From assembly GCA_902812415.1 (NCBI GenBank), contig CADDZJ010000018.1:1-50217 (forward strand): DNA of 50,217 nt, in the 5' to 3' direction. A program made the position numbers and the translations under genes. Positions within the stretch are counted from its first letter, which is position 1. Each line of letters opens with the position of its first letter. A model generated the notes under the pieces. It worked only from the letters and a program-made list of their open reading frames with translations, searched no databases and was not told the origin of the DNA. Source of the DNA: Acidobacteriota bacterium (GTDB taxonomy: Bacteria; Acidobacteriota; Terriglobia; UBA7540). Below are positions 11,692 through 48,330 of the stretch, piece by piece.

Positions 11692-11904
11692 GACCGTTAC
11701 AGGATTTCAGCAACGTGGCGGGTTTTCTGTGCACCAGCGCCGGGCGGTTTCCAGGTCTAACGCCAGCGTCTGTTGCTCGGCTTGATGGTGCACAACTATA
11801 ATAATGGAGGTTTGTCAGGGAGTTATCAGGGGCGACGAAGAACCCTGCATTTTTCCATAAATTTCCGGTCGTGTATTCATCGCATCGAAAGTTGGGAGAA
11901 GCCC

Positions 11905-13617
11905 ATGAGCGCCAGTCACTCGTCGCAGGATGTCAGTTCTGTCGAAGATATTCTGATTACGCCACAGCTTTTCTCCCGGAATTCCCGACCGCCTGATCTA
12001 ACCGGGGAAAACCGAGCCCTGGTGGCTCTTGCGCACGAAGCCGCCCAAAATCCCAAATCCTTAATTCAAAAACTGGTGGAGATCACCGCCGAGCTTTGTC
12101 ATGCGGGGAGCGCCGGCATCAGTTTGCTGGAAAATTCTCCCACCGGCACGGTCTTCCGTTGGCGCGCCGTGGCCGGCCAGCTTGCGGCCTATCAGGGAAC
12201 GTCCACCCCGCGCGACGCCTGTTCCTGCGGCGTCTGTCTCGATCGCCGATCCCCTCAGCTTTTTTACCGCCCGGGGCGGTACTTCAATTATTTCGAGAGA
12301 GTCGAACCTTCGATCCATGAGGCGCTGGTGGTGCCCATTTCGAGCGGACGGAATTTTTTAGGCACTCTCTGGGCGGCGACTCACGACGAAGAGCACAAGT
12401 TTGACGCTGAGGATTTGCGCCTGATGAGCCACCTGGCCGAATTCAGCGGCGCCGCACTGCAACTCCTGCGGTCGATCCAAAGCGTATCCCAGGCCAAAAG
12501 GGAACTCGAGGACCGCATCCAGCAAAGAACTCTTGCCCTGTATAACGAGAAGAGGTTCAACGAGGATCTGATCAACTGCATCCTGGATGGGGTTTTTGCT
12601 TTCGACCTCGAGTGCCGCTGCACGATATGGAATCCCGCCATGAAAAAAATCCTGCGCGTTTCCCGAGATGAGATCCTGGGCAAGAACGTTTTTGAGGTGT
12701 TTCCATTCCTGAAAGAAACCGGCGAGGAGGCGTATTTTCATAAGGCGCTTTGCGGCGAAAGCGCTATTGCCAAAGGCCGGGTGTTTGAAATTCCAGAAAC
12801 CGGCGAGCAGCGATTCTTTGACGTGCATTATTGCCCCATCTGGCGGGAGACCGAATTGGGAAAGGGCGAACGTCAGATCATCGGCGGGCTGGGATTGGTG
12901 AAGGACATCACCGAACGGAAGCTTGCGGAGGATTCCTTGCGCGAACTTTCCGGGCGGCTTCTGCAGTTGCAGGATGAAGAGCGGCGGCGAATCGCCCGCG
13001 ACCTGCACGACAGCACCTCTCAAACCATCGCCGCGTTGATGCTGCAATTGAAGGCCTTGCAGAATTCCCTGCGCCTGCGCGACTCCCAAAAGCAGGGCGC
13101 TCTCGAGGAGTGCATGCGCCTGGCGGAGCAGTGCGGATCGGAAATCCGCACCGTTTCCTATCTTCTGCATCCGCCCATGCTCGACGAGGCGGGCCTCAAT
13201 TCGGCCCTGCGCTGGTACGTGCGAGGCTTTGCGGAAAGAAGCGGCATTGACGTGAGTATCCACGTGGCGCCTGAACTCCAGCGGCTGCCGCAGGAGATTG
13301 AGATTGCTCTTTTCCGAGTCATCCAGGAAGCTCTGGCCAACATTCACCGGCATTCCGGAAGCCCGACGGCGGATATCCGCATTGCGCTGACCTCCAAAGA
13401 ACTGGTGCTTGAGATCAAAGATCAGGGCCGCGGGATGCCCCCGGAGGTGGCGCAACAGAAGGGCGGGCGGCTGGGCGTGGGGATTCGGGGAATGCGGGAG
13501 CGAGTGCGGCAACTGGGCGGAGAACTTTATATCTGTTCGGGCCGGGAAGGGGCGACCGTCCGCGTGAACCTGCCGCTGGCGCCTGAAAAGGCGCGCGCCG
13601 CTTCCGAGAGCGCGTGA
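11905..13617 (+). CDS. GAF-PAS sensor histidine kinase, NarX-like (HisKA_3)
   Basis: A soluble sensor kinase of about 570 residues with no membrane segment. Domains in order: GAF (about 45-195), a short coiled coil, PAS (about 210-345, ending in the PAC-like LVKDITERKLAE), HisKA_3 dimerisation domain with the phospho-His in RRRIARDLHDST (about 360-375), and HATPase_c with N-box NIHRHSGS and glycine box GVGIRGMRER. Kinases of this class phosphorylate NarL-type regulators; one is encoded divergently at 10564-11211. ATG 11905 is chosen because GGGAGAA lies just upstream and the longer frame from 11773 adds unrelated residues. Ligand and signal are unknown; the Cys-rich part of GAF (DACSCGVCLD) could bind a metal, cluster or cofactor. 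Confidence 0.9.
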   Translation: MSASHSSQDVSSVEDILITPQLFSRNSRPPDLTGENRALVALAHEAAQNPKSLIQKLVEITAELCHAGSAGISLLENSPTGTVFRWRAVAGQLAAYQGTSTPRDACSCGVCLDRRSPQLFYRPGRYFNYFERVEPSIHEALVVPISSGRNFLGTLWAATHDEEHKFDAEDLRLMSHLAEFSGAALQLLRSIQSVSQAKRELEDRIQQRTLALYNEKRFNEDLINCILDGVFAFDLECRCTIWNPAMKKILRVSRDEILGKNVFEVFPFLKETGEEAYFHKALCGESAIAKGRVFEIPETGEQRFFDVHYCPIWRETELGKGERQIIGGLGLVKDITERKLAEDSLRELSGRLLQLQDEERRRIARDLHDSTSQTIAALMLQLKALQNSLRLRDSQKQGALEECMRLAEQCGSEIRTVSYLLHPPMLDEAGLNSALRWYVRGFAERSGIDVSIHVAPELQRLPQEIEIALFRVIQEALANIHRHSGSPTADIRIALTSKELVLEIKDQGRGMPPEVAQQKGGRLGVGIRGMRERVRQLGGELYICSGREGATVRVNLPLAPEKARAASESA

Positions 13618-13658: not shown

Positions 13659-13798
13659 CGTCATTCTGAGTGAAACGCAACGAAGCGAAGAATCCCCGTA
13701 TTTCGGCTTTGAGCAAACTCCGCGAAGCATCTCCATTCGCTGAAAAACAAAATACAGGGATTCTTCCGCCTCGCTTCGCTCGGCGTCAGAATGACAGA
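13659..13798. repeat. GTCATTCTGAG palindromic repeat, copy 2
   Basis: Full inverted repeat: left arm GTCATTCTGAGTGAAACG, then GAAGAATCCCCGTATTTC; right arm AATACAGGGATTCTTCC, then GTCAGAATGACAG. The central part contains an ACTCCGCGAAGCATCTCC segment that partly recurs near 14310 and 19979. Confidence 0.8.
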
Positions 13799-13867
13799 GT
13801 GGAGGCTCTGTGCTCGGAATGGAGGGCGTTGCTCAGCGTTACAATCTGAAGGTGAGACCCTTCCCCC

Positions 13868-13910
13868 TGTCATTCTGAGCGAGCGCAGCACAGCGAAGAA
13901 TCACCGTATT
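13868..13910. repeat. GTCATTCTGAG repeat, left arm only, abutting a GIY-YIG gene
   Basis: One arm (TGTCATTCTGAGCGAGCGCA, then GCGAAGAATCACCGTATT). Its inner end overlaps the stop codon of the GIY-YIG gene at 13909-13911. The usual right arm is absent; the nuclease gene occupies the place where the centre of the palindrome would be. Confidence 0.75.
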
Positions 13911-14208
13911 ACTTTTTATCGAACCAATCCTCACTTAAGTCCCGCCAGGTGGGATTCTGCGAAACGATCAGAGCCGCTTTCCTGGCACGAAGCCAACCCT
14001 TGATTTGTTTCTCTCGCTGAATCGCAGCGCGAACTTCGCCGAACGTCTCAAAATAGACCAGCCGGTTCAGGTTGTACTGACTCGTAAATCCTGGAAGCAG
14101 CTTGCGCTGATGCTGAAGTACTCGTCGCTCAAGATTATAGGTGCCTCCGGTGTACAGAGTTCGGAACTTGCCGGCCATGATGTAGACATAGAAGGTCTTC
14201 ATGGGCAT
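13909..14208 (-). CDS. GIY-YIG nuclease domain protein (UPF0213/YhbQ type)
   Basis: A protein of about 99 residues consisting of a single GIY-YIG nuclease domain. The first strand pair reads YVYIM and YTGGT, in place of GIY and YIG. A conserved Arg follows in NLERRV, and the metal-binding Glu is in REKQIKGW. Family members are small stand-alone nucleases or relatives of homing endonucleases. ATG 14208 or 14202 can start it; no strong ribosome-binding site is visible. The gene lies in a repeat cluster: a single palindrome arm touches its stop codon and a full palindrome begins 26 nt upstream of its start. I infer an association with the repeat family, in the way RAYT transposases accompany REP sequences, but this is untested. 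Confidence 0.82.
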   Translation of the reverse strand: MPMKTFYVYIMAGKFRTLYTGGTYNLERRVLQHQRKLLPGFTSQYNLNRLVYFETFGEVRAAIQREKQIKGWLRARKAALIVSQNPTWRDLSEDWFDKK

Positions 14209-14233
14209 CACACTCAGTCGCTGAGCCTTTCAT

Positions 14234-14366
14234 CTGTCATTCCAAATTCTCCCCGCGTAGCGAAGAATCCCCGTATTTGCATTGTTCTGTAAAGGCATAA
14301 ATGCTTCGCGGATTTTACCAAAATATCGGGATTCTTCGCTTCGCTGCGCTCGCTCAGAATGACAGA
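14234..14366. repeat. GTCATTCTGAG palindromic repeat, copy 3
   Basis: Full inverted repeat with left arm TGTCATTCCAAATTCTCCC, then GAAGAATCCCCGTATTTGC, and right arm ATCGGGATTCTTCGCTTCGC, then GCTCAGAATGACAG. It begins just upstream of the GIY-YIG start codon. A CCGCTACAA fragment of another repeat follows at about 14391, before the kinase stop codon at 14418. Confidence 0.8.
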
Positions 14367-14417: not shown

Positions 14418-17400
14418 TCAGGCTTTTGCGCCTGACAAAGGCAGGGTGGCCTTAATGGTTGTGCCGCGCGGGCCGGACTTAACAACAAGCTGCCCTCCCA
14501 GTTTTCTCACTCGCTCGCGCATTCCTGTGATGCCAACCCCGGCGCCGGGCCGTTCAGTCTGGCGGTCGTTCCAACTGCTTTGCGGCATGCCTTTGCCCTG
14601 ATCCTGCACTTCCATCTCGACATGGTTTTTGTCGCGGGTGATTTTGATGGCGGCGGTCGGGCTGCCGGAATGAAGATGAATGTTGGTGAGGCTTTCCTGA
14701 ACCAGGCGGTAGATGGCGGTTTCGACTTCAGCCGGCATGCGCCCCAGATCGTTGGGCGCATCCAGATCCACCTGAATGCCGCTGCGCTTGACAAAGCCTT
14801 CCACCAGCCATCGGATGGCCGGTCTCAGGCCCAGCTCATCGAGCAAGGGCGGGTGGAGCAAATAGGAAAGGGTTCGGACTTCGTTGGAACATTGCTTGGC
14901 GAACTCAATGCTTTCGGCGAGCGCTTTGCGAGCCGGGGGCTTCAAAGACCCCGCCGCTTTATGGACCACCGCGAGATTGGCCAGCAGCCCGGTCAGGCTG
15001 GAGCCGGTTGAATCGTGCAACTCGCGGGCAATCCGCTGCCGCTCTTCATCCTGCAACTGCACCAGCCGGGCGGAAAACTCCTGCAGCGACCGCTCGGCCT
15101 GTTTTCTCTCCGAGATATCGAGGACCACGTGTTCAAGGAAGGCCGCCTCGGCGCCGGGTAAATCGACCAGAATGGTATTCAGCAAGACCTCCATCGGCCT
15201 GCCATCCTTGCGGCGAAACCGCACTTCATAATCCGCCAGGCTGCCTCGGGATTGCAGTTGGGAGAGCATGTTTTCCCGCTCCGCCGCATCGAAGTGGAAG
15301 TCTGCCGCATTCAGGCGCATCACCTCTTCCGGTGAGTCATATCCCAGCATCCGGGCCATGGCCGGATTGCAGTCGAGGATCACGCCTTCGAGCGTCACGC
15401 GGCAGATGCCCGCCAGATTGCGCTCAAACAGGAGGCGATAACGGTTTTCGAGCGCCTTGGCCGCTTCCTCCGCGATCTTGCGCTTGGTGACGTCCTGAAT
15501 CGCAAGCAGAATCAATTCCGTGGCATGATCCTGGCGGATCTGACGGGCGTTCAAACGCATCATGCGGCGCCCGATGTTCGGGAAGTCGTGCTCCACTTCA
15601 AAGTCTTCGATCTCAGTCGCCTTCGGGAGGATATCTTCAAGGAGAGAGCGAAGCCGAGGGATGTTCCACTGCCCGTTGCCGAGTTCATAGATGAAGCGAT
15701 TCTCGGTTTCTTCCGGCGAGACCTGGAAAGTCTGGTAGAAGGCGGGATTCGCGCTCTTGACCCGGAGTTCGGCGTCCAGCACCAGGATGCTTTCCGGAAC
15801 GGTCTCGATAATGGCCTCCGCGTACCGGCGCGACCTGGAAACCTGCGATTTAAAGGCATCGATATTGGTCCAGGTCATCACCGCGCCATCGATTCGGTTG
15901 TCCGCCGTTTTATACGGGCGGATGCGCATCAGGTGCCAACGCCCCTGGCCATCCTGCACCTCCTGTTCTTTAACGGTGACGCTGTTGATCGCATCGAGGA
16001 TCAGCCGGTGCAGATCGGGGATGTTGAGGTTGATCTTGATGTCCGTGATGGGCCGCCCCACGTCGGTAGGGATCAGGTTGAGGATCTTTTCGACCAGGGG
16101 CGTGAAGCGCCGGATGCGAAGATCGTTGTCCAGCATGACAATGGGAATGTCCACGGCGCTCAGCAGGTTGACGAGGTCGTTGTTGGCGACGCTCAATTCC
16201 AGGTTGCGGTTCTGCAATTCTTCATTGAGCGTGGTGAGCTCTTCATTGGTGGACTGGAGTTCTTCCTTGGCCGTCTCCATCTCTTCATTGGTGCTTTGCA
16301 GTTCCTCGTTGCTCGAGAGAATTTCCTCATTGGCGGAGCGCAACTCTTCGTTGGTGGTCTCCTGCTTCTCGATAATGGACTGAAGGTGGGCCTTGGTCTG
16401 GGCCAGTTCCTGCTGCAATTGCCGGATGAGCTTTGCCTGGGCGTTGTCTTTCGCGGCCTTTCGCCCACGATCTGGTGCGAGCTCGGAGGGGGCAGGCCGC
16501 GTGGTGTCGTAGAAGAGAACCAGGAAGTAGGATCGCTTGGATCCCGGACCGTGCAGGGGCGCCACCTCAATGGCGGCCTCTCGCAGACTTCCATTGTGCC
16601 GGAACTGGATTCCCTCCTTGCGGATGGGAGTTCCTTCCGACTTCGCTTTATGGAGGGCGGCCCGCAACTCGAGGATAAGGCCCTCGCGAGCCATTTTGAG
16701 CAGGCTCAGGCTGGCCTGGCCGGGCGCAGGCTCCAGAAACGTTCCGGTGTGTCCCCGGAACTGGAGAATCTCAAAATCTTCGTTCACGATTACGCCAGCA
16801 GGCGTGTATTTGGAAAGAAGGAGCCGGTCGGCTTCTTTGAGAACGTCGAATCCGTTGGCCGATTCCTCATCTCTCCGAGCTGCGCCCCGCCCCCTTCCCA
16901 CCGGAAACTCGCTGCCAAACTCGAGCGGCCAGGGCGCCGAGGAGACGGACTTTTTTGCATAGATTTTGTGCTTCTTGTCGATCAAAGTGAAATGTTCCGA
17001 AAATCCGCCGATGGTTTCCGAGCTTCCCAGAATGAGGGTTCCGCCCGGCTTCAACGCGTAATGAAAAACAGAAATGACCTTCTTCTGCAGAATCGGCCCG
17101 AGATAGATCAATAAATTGCGGCAACTGATCAGATCGAGCTTGGAGAAGGGAGGATCTTTGGTGACATCCTGCCGGGCGAACACGCACATTTCGCGGATCG
17201 ACTTGCCAATCTGATAGCCTCGATCCACCTTGATGAAAAATCGCCGGAGGCGCTCCGGCGAGACTTCAGCCCGGATATTTTCCAGATAAACGCCCGCGCG
17301 AGCTTTCTCAACGGCCTGCTCGCTGATATCCGTGGCAAAGATCTGGATGGGAACGTGGAGAGAAGACTCGCCGAGAAATTCCAGCAGGCTGATGGCGATG

Positions 17401-18446
17401 GAGTAGACTTCTTCGCCCGTGGAGCAGCCCGGAACCCAGATTCGGATCGACAGGTCAGGGGGGTGATCGTGGGTGATGGAGGGGAAAACCTTCTTCTTGA
17501 GGAAATCGAAGAGTTCAGGGTCGCGGAAAAAACCGGTGACGTGGATGAGGATGTCCTGGTAAAGCGCGTCCAGTTCGGCGGGATTTTCCTGCAGGTAGCG
17601 CAGGTAATCCTTGAGGCTTTCAATTTTGTTGAGCGCCATGCGACGGTTGATGCGCCGGCGGACGGTGGTCTGCTTGTAATAGGTGAAATCGACGCCGCTG
17701 GATTTGCGGAGCAGCAGGAAGATCCTGTTCAGCTCGTTATCGCCCTCGGGGAGAAAGTCAGGAATTTCAAGGGCTTTGGACTGGATAACATACGGATGCC
17801 GGCCAAGGCTCATTAATTCCCGGGCAATCATCTCGGGCGGCAGGATAAAATCCACGCAGCCTGCCGCGACAGCATGGCGCGGCATATCCGGATATTTCGC
17901 CGACTTTTCATCCTGCGCGAAGGTAATGCCGCCCTCCGCCTTGATGGCTTTCATCCCGATCGTGCCGTCGTAGGCGGTGCCCGATAGAATAACTCCTATG
18001 GCTTTGGTCTTGAGATCCTCCGCCAGCGAACGGAAGAAAAAATCAATGGGCATGTGCTGCTCGGAGGCTGCGCGGCGAACCAGATGCAGCTTTGCATCTG
18101 AAATCGTCATGTTGGTGTCGGGGGGAATCACATAGACGTGATCCGGCTCCACTTGCATTCCATCTTTCACCTCGGCGATCGGGATGCGGGTGGCCCGCGC
18201 CAGCAGGTCGGGCAGCGCGCTCTTGTGCTTCGGCGCCAGATGCTGCACCAGGACGAACGCCATTCCGGTTTGCGCCGGCAAGTGGCTTAGAAGCTGTGTG
18301 AAAGCCTCCAGCCCGCCGGCTGACGCTCCGATGCCCACGACGGGAAAAGATTTCGTGACGGCTGATTTCGCGGGCTTGAAGCGCGAGGCGGTGGACATGG
18401 TTTTTGCCCCGTTCCTTCTGCGGCGCGAAGGCGACTTTGTGTTCAT
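14418..18446 (-). CDS. CheB-CheR fusion sensor kinase (PAS domains, HisKA_3 kinase)
   Basis: A 1342-residue soluble multidomain protein. Domains: CheB-type methylesterase (about 34-215) with catalytic Ser in GIGASAGG (S42), His in VQHLAP (H69) and Asp in GTAYDGTIGM (D160); CheR-type methyltransferase (about 235-505) with SAM-binding GCSTGEEVYS; a long coiled coil of repeated NEEL/SxNEE units (about 680-750); three PAS/PAC regions; then HisKA_3 with phospho-His in RIARELHDST and HATPase_c ending with GVGITGMRERVRKLGG. CheB-CheR-PAS fusions are known in many soil bacteria. Here the output is a NarX-like kinase, so the partner should be a NarL-type regulator. There is no receiver domain on CheB. 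ATG 18446 is used; ATG 18398 is possible. A 529-codon antisense frame over it is a shadow. Confidence 0.9.
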   Translation of the reverse strand: MNTKSPSRRRRNGAKTMSTASRFKPAKSAVTKSFPVVGIGASAGGLEAFTQLLSHLPAQTGMAFVLVQHLAPKHKSALPDLLARATRIPIAEVKDGMQVEPDHVYVIPPDTNMTISDAKLHLVRRAASEQHMPIDFFFRSLAEDLKTKAIGVILSGTAYDGTIGMKAIKAEGGITFAQDEKSAKYPDMPRHAVAAGCVDFILPPEMIARELMSLGRHPYVIQSKALEIPDFLPEGDNELNRIFLLLRKSSGVDFTYYKQTTVRRRINRRMALNKIESLKDYLRYLQENPAELDALYQDILIHVTGFFRDPELFDFLKKKVFPSITHDHPPDLSIRIWVPGCSTGEEVYSIAISLLEFLGESSLHVPIQIFATDISEQAVEKARAGVYLENIRAEVSPERLRRFFIKVDRGYQIGKSIREMCVFARQDVTKDPPFSKLDLISCRNLLIYLGPILQKKVISVFHYALKPGGTLILGSSETIGGFSEHFTLIDKKHKIYAKKSVSSAPWPLEFGSEFPVGRGRGAARRDEESANGFDVLKEADRLLLSKYTPAGVIVNEDFEILQFRGHTGTFLEPAPGQASLSLLKMAREGLILELRAALHKAKSEGTPIRKEGIQFRHNGSLREAAIEVAPLHGPGSKRSYFLVLFYDTTRPAPSELAPDRGRKAAKDNAQAKLIRQLQQELAQTKAHLQSIIEKQETTNEELRSANEEILSSNEELQSTNEEMETAKEELQSTNEELTTLNEELQNRNLELSVANNDLVNLLSAVDIPIVMLDNDLRIRRFTPLVEKILNLIPTDVGRPITDIKINLNIPDLHRLILDAINSVTVKEQEVQDGQGRWHLMRIRPYKTADNRIDGAVMTWTNIDAFKSQVSRSRRYAEAIIETVPESILVLDAELRVKSANPAFYQTFQVSPEETENRFIYELGNGQWNIPRLRSLLEDILPKATEIEDFEVEHDFPNIGRRMMRLNARQIRQDHATELILLAIQDVTKRKIAEEAAKALENRYRLLFERNLAGICRVTLEGVILDCNPAMARMLGYDSPEEVMRLNAADFHFDAAERENMLSQLQSRGSLADYEVRFRRKDGRPMEVLLNTILVDLPGAEAAFLEHVVLDISERKQAERSLQEFSARLVQLQDEERQRIARELHDSTGSSLTGLLANLAVVHKAAGSLKPPARKALAESIEFAKQCSNEVRTLSYLLHPPLLDELGLRPAIRWLVEGFVKRSGIQVDLDAPNDLGRMPAEVETAIYRLVQESLTNIHLHSGSPTAAIKITRDKNHVEMEVQDQGKGMPQSSWNDRQTERPGAGVGITGMRERVRKLGGQLVVKSGPRGTTIKATLPLSGAKA

Positions 18447-18881: not shown

Positions 18882-18998
18882 CGGTCATTCTGGGGAGCCG
18901 AAGGCGGTCCTGAGTGAAACGAAGGAAGAATCCCTGTATTGGGTCGCCCTGCAAATGCGGGGATTCTTCGCTTCGCTGCGCTCGCTCAGAATGACAGG
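18882..18998. repeat. GTCATTCTGAG palindromic repeat, copy 5
   Basis: Left arm GTCATTCTGGGGAGCCGAAG, then GAAGGAAGAATCCCTGTATT; right arm AATGCGGGGATTCTTCGC, then GCTCGCTCAGAATGACAGG. The two arms belong to different arm subtypes (GAGGAGCC and GAGCGAGC). Confidence 0.8.
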
Positions 18999-21750: not shown

Positions 21751-21935
21751 CCCGACAGGTTACTGAAAAGCTTTTGTAGCCTGGGTCATTCTGAGCGAGC
21801 GCAGCGAAGCGAAGAATCTCTGTATTTGCAAGAAATAAGGCAAGTAAATGCCGGGATTCTTCCTTCGTTTCACTCAGGACCACCTTCGGCTACTCAGAAT
21901 GACAGGGTACAAAAGCTTTTCAGCAACCTGTCGGG
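21751..21935. mobile_element. MITE-like element: full-length GTCATTCTGAG palindrome with 28-nt terminal inverted repeats
   Basis: The 185-bp element has outer arms at 21751-21778 (starting CCCGACAGGTTACTGAAAAG) and 21908-21935 (ending CAGCAACCTGTCGGG), complementary at 27 of 28 positions. Within them lie the usual inner arms, GTCATTCTGAGCGAGCGC and CTCAGAATGACAGGG. There is no coding capacity and I cannot see a target-site duplication. Weaker versions of the outer arms flank the copies near 18700 and 45650, so this looks like the ancestral full form of the repeat family. Confidence 0.7.
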
Positions 21936-32538: not shown

Positions 32539-32890
32539 CTGGACAGGTGAGAAACTCATCCGTCCTGCTATGGGGAGCTGTTCCAACTGTCATTCTGAGG
32601 AGCCGAAGGCGGTTCCTTCGCTGTGCTCAGGACAGGCTCTGAGTGAAACGAAGGAAGAATCCCTGCATCGAATGGGTTCCGCAATACGGGGATTTTTGCT
32701 ATCGCTCAGAGTGACAACCGAAGGACTTTAGGTCAACGTGCCCAAAGGGTTTTTCATCAACCTCTTATGAAAGGCCGAACCAGGGCTATAAGGCGTTTTC
32801 AAAATCCATGGAGACTCGATGGGGAAATGAACTCGAAACTTAATGGAAAGGGAAGCCTCAACGTTGAGGGCTGCGAACGACTGACCGCGA
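32539..32890. other. murF-mraY gap
   Basis: This 352-nt gap inside the dcw cluster contains one full GTCATTCTGAG palindrome (32588-32716). The following 170 nt include a TTTTTCATCAACCTCTTATGA segment like the outer arm of the long repeat at 21751-21935 (quoted in part: TTTTTCATCAACCT). I see no gene and no clear promoter. Confidence 0.5.
32588..32716. repeat. GTCATTCTGAG palindromic repeat, copy 6, between murF and mraY
   Basis: Left arm TGTCATTCTGAGGAGCCGAA, then GTGAAACGAAGGAAGAATCC; right arm AATACGGGGATTTTTGC, then CGCTCAGAGTGACA. The left arm contains an extra insertion of about 20 nt (CTTCGCTGTGCTCAGGACAG). Confidence 0.8.
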
Positions 32891-47810: not shown

Positions 47811-48330
47811 TGCATGAATGCCCCTTGCAGGCCGCCGAAAGACTCATCCAGTCTGTCATTCGCAGCCCTTCATCGGTCATCTGGAACTCTTCCCTTGTCA
47901 TTCTGAGCGGAGCGCAGCGAAGCAAAGAATCCCAGTATTGTTTTGAAGGGAATGCAGGAATTCTTCCTTCGTTTCACTCAGGCCCGCCTCCGGCTCCTCA
48001 GAATGACTGACGAAGGGCTCGCTCACAATGACAACATCCGGAATTCTGCAGCAACATCCCAGCAGCTAGAGTATCCGAGCAGAATCTCGGAAGCAAGATG
48101 TTCACCTCCATCGGGCGGTATGAGGGGCGGAAGGGTGATCCCAGCCCGTCGCAGGGGTGCATAAGGCGGCCTGAATCCCTGGCTTAACGATTGATTCTAA
48201 AGCCTGGTTAGGGTTCGATCGGAAACTTTCTTCCCCTCCCCGGTGCGGGGAAGCCCTCGCCGAGGGGCAGGCGGCGGGCGGCGCGGGCGCCATCTCTCCG
48301 GCCTCGGCCGGGGCGGGCGAGGGCGCGGTT
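47811..48330. other. Gene-free region between the radical SAM gene and a remnant ORF
   Basis: It contains a GTCATTCTGAG palindrome (47895-48008) with an outer CTGTCATTCGCAGCCC half-arm at about 47853. A GCAGCAACATCCCAGCAG segment is near 48050, and a G/C-rich stretch rich in GGCGGG repeats lies at 48230-48320. No gene is convincing. Confidence 0.5.
47895..48008. repeat. GTCATTCTGAG palindromic repeat, copy 8
   Basis: Left arm TTGTCATTCTGAGCGGAGCG, then AAGAATCCCAGTATTG; right arm AATGCAGGAATTCTTCCTTC, then CTCCTCAGAATGACTGA. The arms are of different subtypes (GAGCGGAGC and GAGGAGCC). Confidence 0.8.

Follow-up and report, generated by a model that had tools for sequence, protein, structure and literature searches.

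A family of small GIY-YIG nuclease genes bracketed by inverted REP hairpins: a probable enzyme partner of the CGTC/TGTC repeats

Few non-coding elements are as common in bacterial genomes as short palindromic repeats, and for those REPs that carry a GTAG tag the enzyme is known. GIY-YIG nucleases are classic homing enzymes, and Slx1, which has the same fold, is a nuclease of branched DNA. Another group of REPs was described by Di Nocera et al. in 2013: tagged CGTC or TGTC, with stems starting in AT and a CCA tail, they are found mostly as head-head dimers and comprise the classes CGTC-1 to -4, including dRS3 of Neisseria and RPE-4 and RPE-6 of Rickettsia (PMC3733652). According to that survey, these repeats "apparently lack a dedicated transposase", what moves them is posed as a question, no tyrosine-transposase gene flanked by CGTC repeats is recorded, and the term GIY-YIG is absent (PMC3733652). 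In searches of the open PMC library, no report tying a GIY-YIG enzyme to bacterial REPs was found, and GIY-YIG is absent from the texts of PMC12306157 and PMC6006769.

The locus analysed here is carried by a stretch of 50,217 nucleotides (the window), which is contig C18 of the 4.84-Mb draft genome, in 261 contigs, of an Acidobacteriota bacterium (the source genome, G000). As in REP/RAYT systems (REPtrons, REPINs), one short nuclease gene lies between inverted REP hairpins, gene-less REP dimers are numerous, the gene is low-copy and sometimes inherited in place, and the arm sequence is genome-specific. The working is REP/RAYT-like, but two defining features fail: in place of the Y1 HuH transposase TnpA-REP there is a GIY-YIG enzyme, unrelated to it in fold and chemistry, and the tag is TGTC/CGTC instead of GTAG. 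The repeats themselves fit the known CGTC REP superfamily, and what is new is the link to an enzyme. The GIY-YIG family is probably the enzyme partner that spreads the CGTC/TGTC REPs, a counterpart of REP/RAYT built on an unrelated nuclease.

The locus and its repeat family in the source genome

The window contains a single GIY-YIG gene, which is also the only copy in the source genome and for whose product no NCBIfam model was matched. The gene and the members of the repeat family in the window are:

13909-14211, minus strand: GIY-YIG nuclease gene, an ORF of 100 aa encoding a stand-alone domain (Pfam PF01541, E 6e-11)
13866-13910, plus strand: the unit's left arm, with its structural core at 13869-13903; it overlaps the stop codon of the GIY-YIG gene
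14321-14366, minus strand: the unit's right arm, with its structural core at 14329-14363; of all arms it pairs best with the left one
13866-14366: whole arm-GIY-YIG-arm unit, about 500 bp
14233-14278, plus strand: degenerate extra half-arm, nested between the start of the GIY-YIG gene and the right arm
13660-13795: neighbouring gene-less dimer of the same repeat family, arms at 13660-13695 (plus) and 13758-13795 (minus)
18884-18995: gene-less dimer of the same family, arms at 18884-18933 (plus) and 18961-18995 (minus)
21785-21903: gene-less dimer of the same family, arms at 21785-21819 (plus) and 21854-21903 (minus)
47897-48007: gene-less dimer of the same family, mismatched on one inner side
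32589-32662, plus strand: single arm with a long loop

The arms of the unit have TGTCATTCTGAG at the outer end and GAAGAATCCC at the inner end and are identical at 55 of 65 aligned bases, outer flanks included. Because the arm at 13866-13910 pairs best with that at 14321-14366 across the gene, the GIY-YIG gene is placed inside a palindrome. An earlier, sequence-only reading of this DNA had noticed that a repeat arm ends on the stop codon, and the TTA at 13909-13911 (plus strand) does fall within the left arm; its three repeat units inside 700 bp were also recovered, over about 700 bp. The same reading described the stop-codon arm as lacking a right arm, which is wrong: the orphan arm was rejected once its partner had been found beyond the gene. 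It further took 14233-14278 as the left half of another full palindrome, but that half-arm is the poorer match to the right arm (37 of 49 bases). Its statement that the gene is embedded in repeats proved too modest, the gene being enclosed by a matched inverted pair of arms. When slots of 303 bp were stepped along the window, 49 of the 7,031 had inward-facing arms on both sides within 250 bp, these slots overlapping one another and including the surroundings of the GIY-YIG gene itself. The pairing of arms around this gene is not due to chance.

In the source genome, the hairpin repeat is present in high copy and frequently as inverted dimers. The arm pattern TGTCATYCTGAG was found at 202 sites and the reversed pattern at one. 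Gene-less dimers that fit GAAGAATC-N16-46-GATTCTTC numbered at least 33, against 0 in the control. Each arm can be written as TGTC, stem, GAG..loop..GA, stem and CTC/CCC, a REP-like hairpin.

The unit and the neighbouring dimer are flanked by two kinase genes, which from their translations alone were read as a PAS/GAF-type sensor kinase (11773-13617) and a large CheB/CheR-PAS hybrid kinase (14418-18446); the kinase ends of these genes are alike in inverted orientation (107 nt, 74%).

Recurrence of the unit and covariation of arms with proteins

Among 61 genomes (the source and 60 relatives), the window protein was matched in 21, and at six loci (L007, L009, L012, L017, L026 and L027) the order arm, gene, inverted arm was read directly. 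An alignment of window-type proteins was then used to scan 84,980 species genomes, and the best 80 of 564 matches, a choice favouring close relatives, yielded 79 loci from Acidobacteria, Chloroflexi, Deltaproteobacteria, Cyanobacteria, Planctomycetes, Zixibacteria, Latescibacterota, Cloacimonadota, Omnitrophota and others. Flanking symmetry was scored by local alignment between the 200 bp that precede the gene and the reverse complement of the 200 bp that follow it, a motif-free score that was not tuned on known arms. It exceeded the 99th percentile of 2,370 random control positions within the same loci in 45 of the 79 loci, and the 99th percentile in 36 of 60 loci of a second, mostly pseudomonadotal set. 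For non-redundant GIY-YIG genes compared with 291 ORF controls from the same loci, 131 of 179 lay above the 95th percentile and 71 of 179 above the 99th (Mann-Whitney 7e-49).

A structural detector, strict in that inward-facing arms are demanded on both sides within 250 bp, found such arms around 95 of the 179 non-redundant GIY-YIG genes and 5 of 284 control ORFs (Fisher 1e-41); this rate is descriptive, since the detector was written after the arms had been seen. Removal of duplicates by gene sequence had reduced 202 genes to 182 for this count, which left out loci L170-L207 (RAYT and empty-site loci) and 3 genes with less than 120 bp of flank. Both measures support the proposal of the sequence-only reading that homologous GIY-YIG genes should have an excess of adjacent repeats and form a REP/RAYT-like pair with them; the excess is very large and persists across phyla and with genome-specific arm sequences. 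The 84 genes without strict arms on both sides may reflect decay, contig ends, the strictness of the detector, or genes that are genuinely not associated. The median length of 97 homologous units is 449 bp. A phage origin was rejected, as tblastn against 50,697 phage records gave zero matches.

These controls also bear on another explanation, in which the arms are regulatory or structural parts of the gene (a terminator or an autoregulatory hairpin), or small intergenic genes simply tend to gather REPs, enzyme and repeat being unrelated. The arms frequently overlap the stop codon, in the window as elsewhere, and the 2013 survey states that REPs favour the 3' ends of genes (PMC3733652), both of which fit such a role. 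However, paired arms were found at 5/284 control ORFs and at none of 30 Y1_Tnp genes, the arms occur elsewhere in hundreds of copies, and the units move with the gene, so that this explanation is highly improbable.

Across the collection, the arms keep a general plan consisting of a tag (TGTC/CGTC), a stem, a loop that is frequently a hairpin in its own right, the reverse-complement stem, and a tail CTC, CCC or CCA. Both sides of the stem change together: ATTCT/AGAAT, ATCCT/AGGAT, ATGCT/AGCAT, ACCCT/AGGGT, ATTCC/GGAAT, ATCCC/GGGAT, ATTGC/GCAAT and others were found, making 31 different 5-nt stems, some of them single chance hits, and most of the commonest types begin with AT or AC. The two arms of one gene have the same stem in 59 of 97 genes, compared with a mean of 16 and a maximum of 27 in 2,000 shuffles. 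By tail, 59 genes are of the CC type, 70 of the CT type and 1 of another; CCA-type tails occur in Pseudomonadota, and CTC/CCC in Acidobacteriota and others. On a tree of 182 proteins, which was built from 94 columns and has few well-supported forks, the arm class (all classes) changes 17 times, versus 54.5 times in shuffles. The arm class follows the protein tree, and the two are co-inherited. One relative (G025) has the gene and zero standard arm sites; its arms are of the CGTCATTCCGAG variant.

To relate the arms to described repeats, plasmid records were searched by tblastn with a proteobacterial-type protein, and 34 records matched, including Azospirillum lipoferum, Neisseria gonorrhoeae, Sinorhizobium meliloti and Novosphingobium aromaticivorans. 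A. lipoferum, S. meliloti, N. aromaticivorans and Neisseria are named as CGTC-REP hosts in the 2013 survey (PMC3733652). Inverted CGTC-type REPs bracket the gene in all four, with scores of 48.9 in A. lipoferum, 28.2 in N. gonorrhoeae, 30.4 in S. meliloti (arm tag CCTC) and 32.0 in N. aromaticivorans. The pseudomonadotal arms are CGTC-tagged REPs: they share the CGTC/TGTC tag, the stem starting in AT and the head-head dimers, and their tails are of the CCA type. The acidobacterial arms differ from these in their CTC/CCC tail and long variable loops, and the distribution found here is wider than the five phyla given in the 2013 survey (PMC3733652).

Repeat number, candidate enzymes and movement of the unit

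Repeat number is tied to the presence of the gene. With presence defined as a match at E<1e-15 and weaker matches counted as absent, the 61 genomes have a median of 57.5 arm sites with the gene (n=18) and 1 without it (n=43; p 1.4e-6), and the relation holds when only members of the same family are compared (p 1.2e-4). Among 299 Pseudomonadota genomes, where presence meant E<1e-12 and the count pattern covers one CGTC REP class only, 20 of 72 with the gene had at least 10 CGTC-1 REPs, versus 10 of 227 without it (p 1.8e-7). The sequence-only reading had held that genomes with abundant repeats but without any such gene would refute it. Genomes of this kind do occur, but as a minority: 10/227 in Pseudomonadota and 4/43 among the relatives, namely G005, G027, G042 and G057, which are gene-less at E<1e-15 and have 44-85 sites, i.e. 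at least 40. REPs outliving a lost enzyme would give this pattern, and some of the many-REP genomes without the gene are incomplete assemblies or hold gene fragments. One pseudomonadotal genome (G159) has 707 CGTC-1 REPs and a fragmented GIY-YIG gene, in two adjoining pieces on contig C87; the REPs may have outlasted their enzyme there, or the gene may have been lost recently.

Genes of the Y1_Tnp type (RAYT superfamily) were found in 52 of the same 61 genomes, 3 of them in the source genome, and their number rises weakly with that of the arms (Spearman 0.29, p 0.02). Both observations would suit a mobilisation of the REPs in trans by RAYT/IS200-type (Y1, HuH) transposases, with the GIY-YIG gene as a hitch-hiker. 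However, none of 30 Y1_Tnp loci in these genomes had adjacent arms (at L186 one arm lies more than 1 kb away), and RAYT was rejected as the arm partner on this count. Moreover, one genome (G060) has 156 arm sites and 4 GIY matches with zero Y1_Tnp, another (G059) has 36 Y1_Tnp matches with 1 arm site, and in the 2013 survey CGTC repeats flank no tyrosine-transposase gene (PMC3733652). Mobilisation in trans by such transposases is highly improbable.

Several copies of an arm-gene-arm unit of about 505 bp were found in G125 and G241, two genomes of one alphaproteobacterial genus. The copies L211, L212, L214, L215 and L216 are 86-91% alike, and the similarity is lost outside the ends CTTCGTC and GACGAAG; in L212 a portion of the right arm is missing, L214 and L215 have some flank in common, and L213, a further copy in G125, is about 76% alike to the other units. 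A unit with terminal inverted repeats is found at several places with unrelated flanks (L211, L212, L214-L216), as for an insertion sequence or transposon. Its REP occurs in 234 copies in G125 and 113 in G241, and 30 REP places fetched from these genomes included units of 358, 379 and 488 bp in which the gene is decaying, as well as gene-less dimers of about 180 bp. The dimers form a homogeneous class with the same inner tails and are derivatives of the unit that have no gene. L014 and L025, which come from two genomes of a single genus, align from tag to tag and little further. By this comparison, the whole unit has moved or been copied in some genomes.

Sites with and without the gene were compared in several genera. 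The gene of Azospirillum lipoferum 4B stands between sufB and sufC and is accompanied on either side by a REP dimer, whereas the same place lacks both the gene and any REP in three relatives of about 95% identity (A. ramasamyi, A. oryzae and strain B510). In Sphingobium, the arm-gene-arm unit separates fnrL from a response-regulator gene on seven plasmids; at this site a palindrome stands alone in two strains (L204 and L203, strains TomTYG64 and TomTYG74), and two have nothing similar. S. meliloti Ak57 and Sinorhizobium M103 agree in the position of the gene, which has REP dimers to its left and right in both; the position being the same in two species, the gene was inherited there and did not hop, which speaks against frequent hopping. 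In an alphaproteobacterial genus of 61 genomes, the unit lies upstream of mdh in G241, and G409, G379 and G393 (gene-less and aligned right across) and the other inspected flanks are without it, G409 keeping a short REP remnant. The right flank of L216 in G241 and its congeners is a dispersed intergenic repeat in its own right: query bases about 500-585 match many other sites in the genus. No target-site duplication was apparent at the inspected junctions; the empty sites examined were too diverged to fix the exact junction, and in Azospirillum, Sphingobium, Sinorhizobium and the 61-genome genus the flanks were too variable for the exact target site to be read. For L138, L139 and L135, no clean close empty site was found.

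The main rival explanation is of the homing type: a free-standing GIY-YIG gene would have invaded REP dimers that already existed, the enzyme cutting gene-less dimers and being copied in by recombination through the arms, and the REPs would be spread by something else. It is unlikely, yet several observations accord with it. Homing is the classic activity of GIY-YIG nucleases, the gene occupies the position of the dimer loop, gene-less dimers are plentiful in the same genomes, and the lone Sphingobium palindrome stands in two strains where seven carry the full unit. That palindrome, however, could equally have arisen by deletion between direct 8-mers in the two arms. Homing also predicts many occupied dimers, whereas the source genome contains a single gene and no fewer than 33 empty dimers, and the relatives of A. 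lipoferum have no REP at the empty site. Finally, arms and proteins covary in a genome-specific manner and REP number is tied to the presence of the gene, which suggests that the enzyme matters for the REPs, and not solely the reverse. Homing endonucleases of the I-TevI type resemble the present genes in their catalytic domain and in being selfish and patchy; unlike them, the present units have neither an intron or intein nor a separate DNA-binding domain (about 95 aa in all) and are flanked by hairpin repeats.

The protein, a possible mechanism and other GIY-YIG clades

An AlphaFold2 model made from 37 aligned proteins has a mean pLDDT of 90.4 and a pTM of 0.83. Its nearest solved fold is UPF0213 BH0048 (1zg2, E 1.4e-4), followed by Slx1-Slx4 and, further down, the UvrC N-domain. 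UPF0213, Slx1 and UvrC share the fold; they are cellular proteins and are not known to have such arms. In 49 members Y10, G22, T24, R30, H34, E67 and N86 are invariant, and we take Y10, G22, R30, H34, E67 and N86 to be catalytic-type residues of GIY-YIG enzymes. The PF01541 domain, these conserved residues and the fold place the protein in the GIY-YIG superfamily, and the invariant residues are consistent with an active enzyme.

We infer that the GIY-YIG enzyme cuts or spreads the palindromes, and consider it quite probable that the whole forms a GIY-YIG/REP element in which the nuclease mobilises both its own unit and the gene-less dimers. The autonomous form would be a unit of 0.4-0.5 kb made of a REP-like arm, the gene for a GIY-YIG protein of about 95 aa and an inverted second arm. 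The nuclease would recognise its own arm class, i.e. the TGTC/CGTC tag beside the covarying stem-loop, and would nick or cut at the tag/hairpin in single-stranded or cruciform DNA. The nick is expected to depend on structure and to fall at the arm ends, because the fold is closest to UPF0213 and Slx1 and because the protein has no room for a separate transposase domain. Host replication or repair would then copy the unit, or a gene-less dimer, elsewhere; the host must be invoked because a nuclease alone leaves the joining unexplained. The gene-less dimers would then be non-autonomous, REPIN/MITE-like partners. For the question of what moves CGTC REPs, the pairing provides a small, expressible protein and a defined DNA substrate in each genome. 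If true, this mechanism would represent a new role for the GIY-YIG fold, and it would explain small GIY-YIG genes whose annotation at present goes no further than "GIY-YIG nuclease family protein", "excinuclease ABC subunit C" or "hypothetical protein".

The association with GTC arms is not general in the superfamily. Paired GTC arms were found at none of 25 divergent GIY-YIG genes used as a specificity control, and the idea that such arms are a property of all GIY-YIG genes was rejected. Another clade has a palindrome of its own: 14 of 17 ERRIKGWSRAKKEALI-GDW genes are bracketed by a different inverted repeat with a score above 15.3, measured against 28 local controls only (maximum 14). Its palindromes, e.g. 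CATCCTGAGCTTGTCGAAGGA or CTCATCCTGAGGTGC..GCCTCGAAGGACGAG, score up to 65.8, and its genes form one clade with a support of 99. This suggests that the pairing of a GIY-YIG clade with a hairpin class is wider than the family studied here. On a broad reading, which we favour with modest confidence, an entire branch of small GIY-YIG proteins may be REP-specific nucleases that act as transposases, with each clade reading its own hairpin class, and together these enzymes may have made most of the non-GTAG short palindromes of bacterial genomes. The classes would be CGTC..CCA in Pseudomonadota, TGTC..CTC in Acidobacteriota, Chloroflexota, Cyanobacteria and others, and the ERRIKGWSRAKKEALI-type clade with its TGAGCTTGTCGA-type hairpin. 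If true, the REP/REPIN system would have been invented twice independently, the second time around an unrelated enzyme.

At the pseudomonadotal loci L308-L325, genes of the ERRIKGWSRAKKEALI-GDW clade are flanked by inverted palindromes of the ATCCTGAGCTTGTCGAAGGA / CCTGAGGTGC..GCCTCGAAGG kind. A further group of divergent GIY-YIG genes (L019/L030, L020, L021 and L029), without TGTC arms, lies against tRNA genes with the tRNA 3' halves repeated on both sides, and these genes look inserted at tRNA ends.
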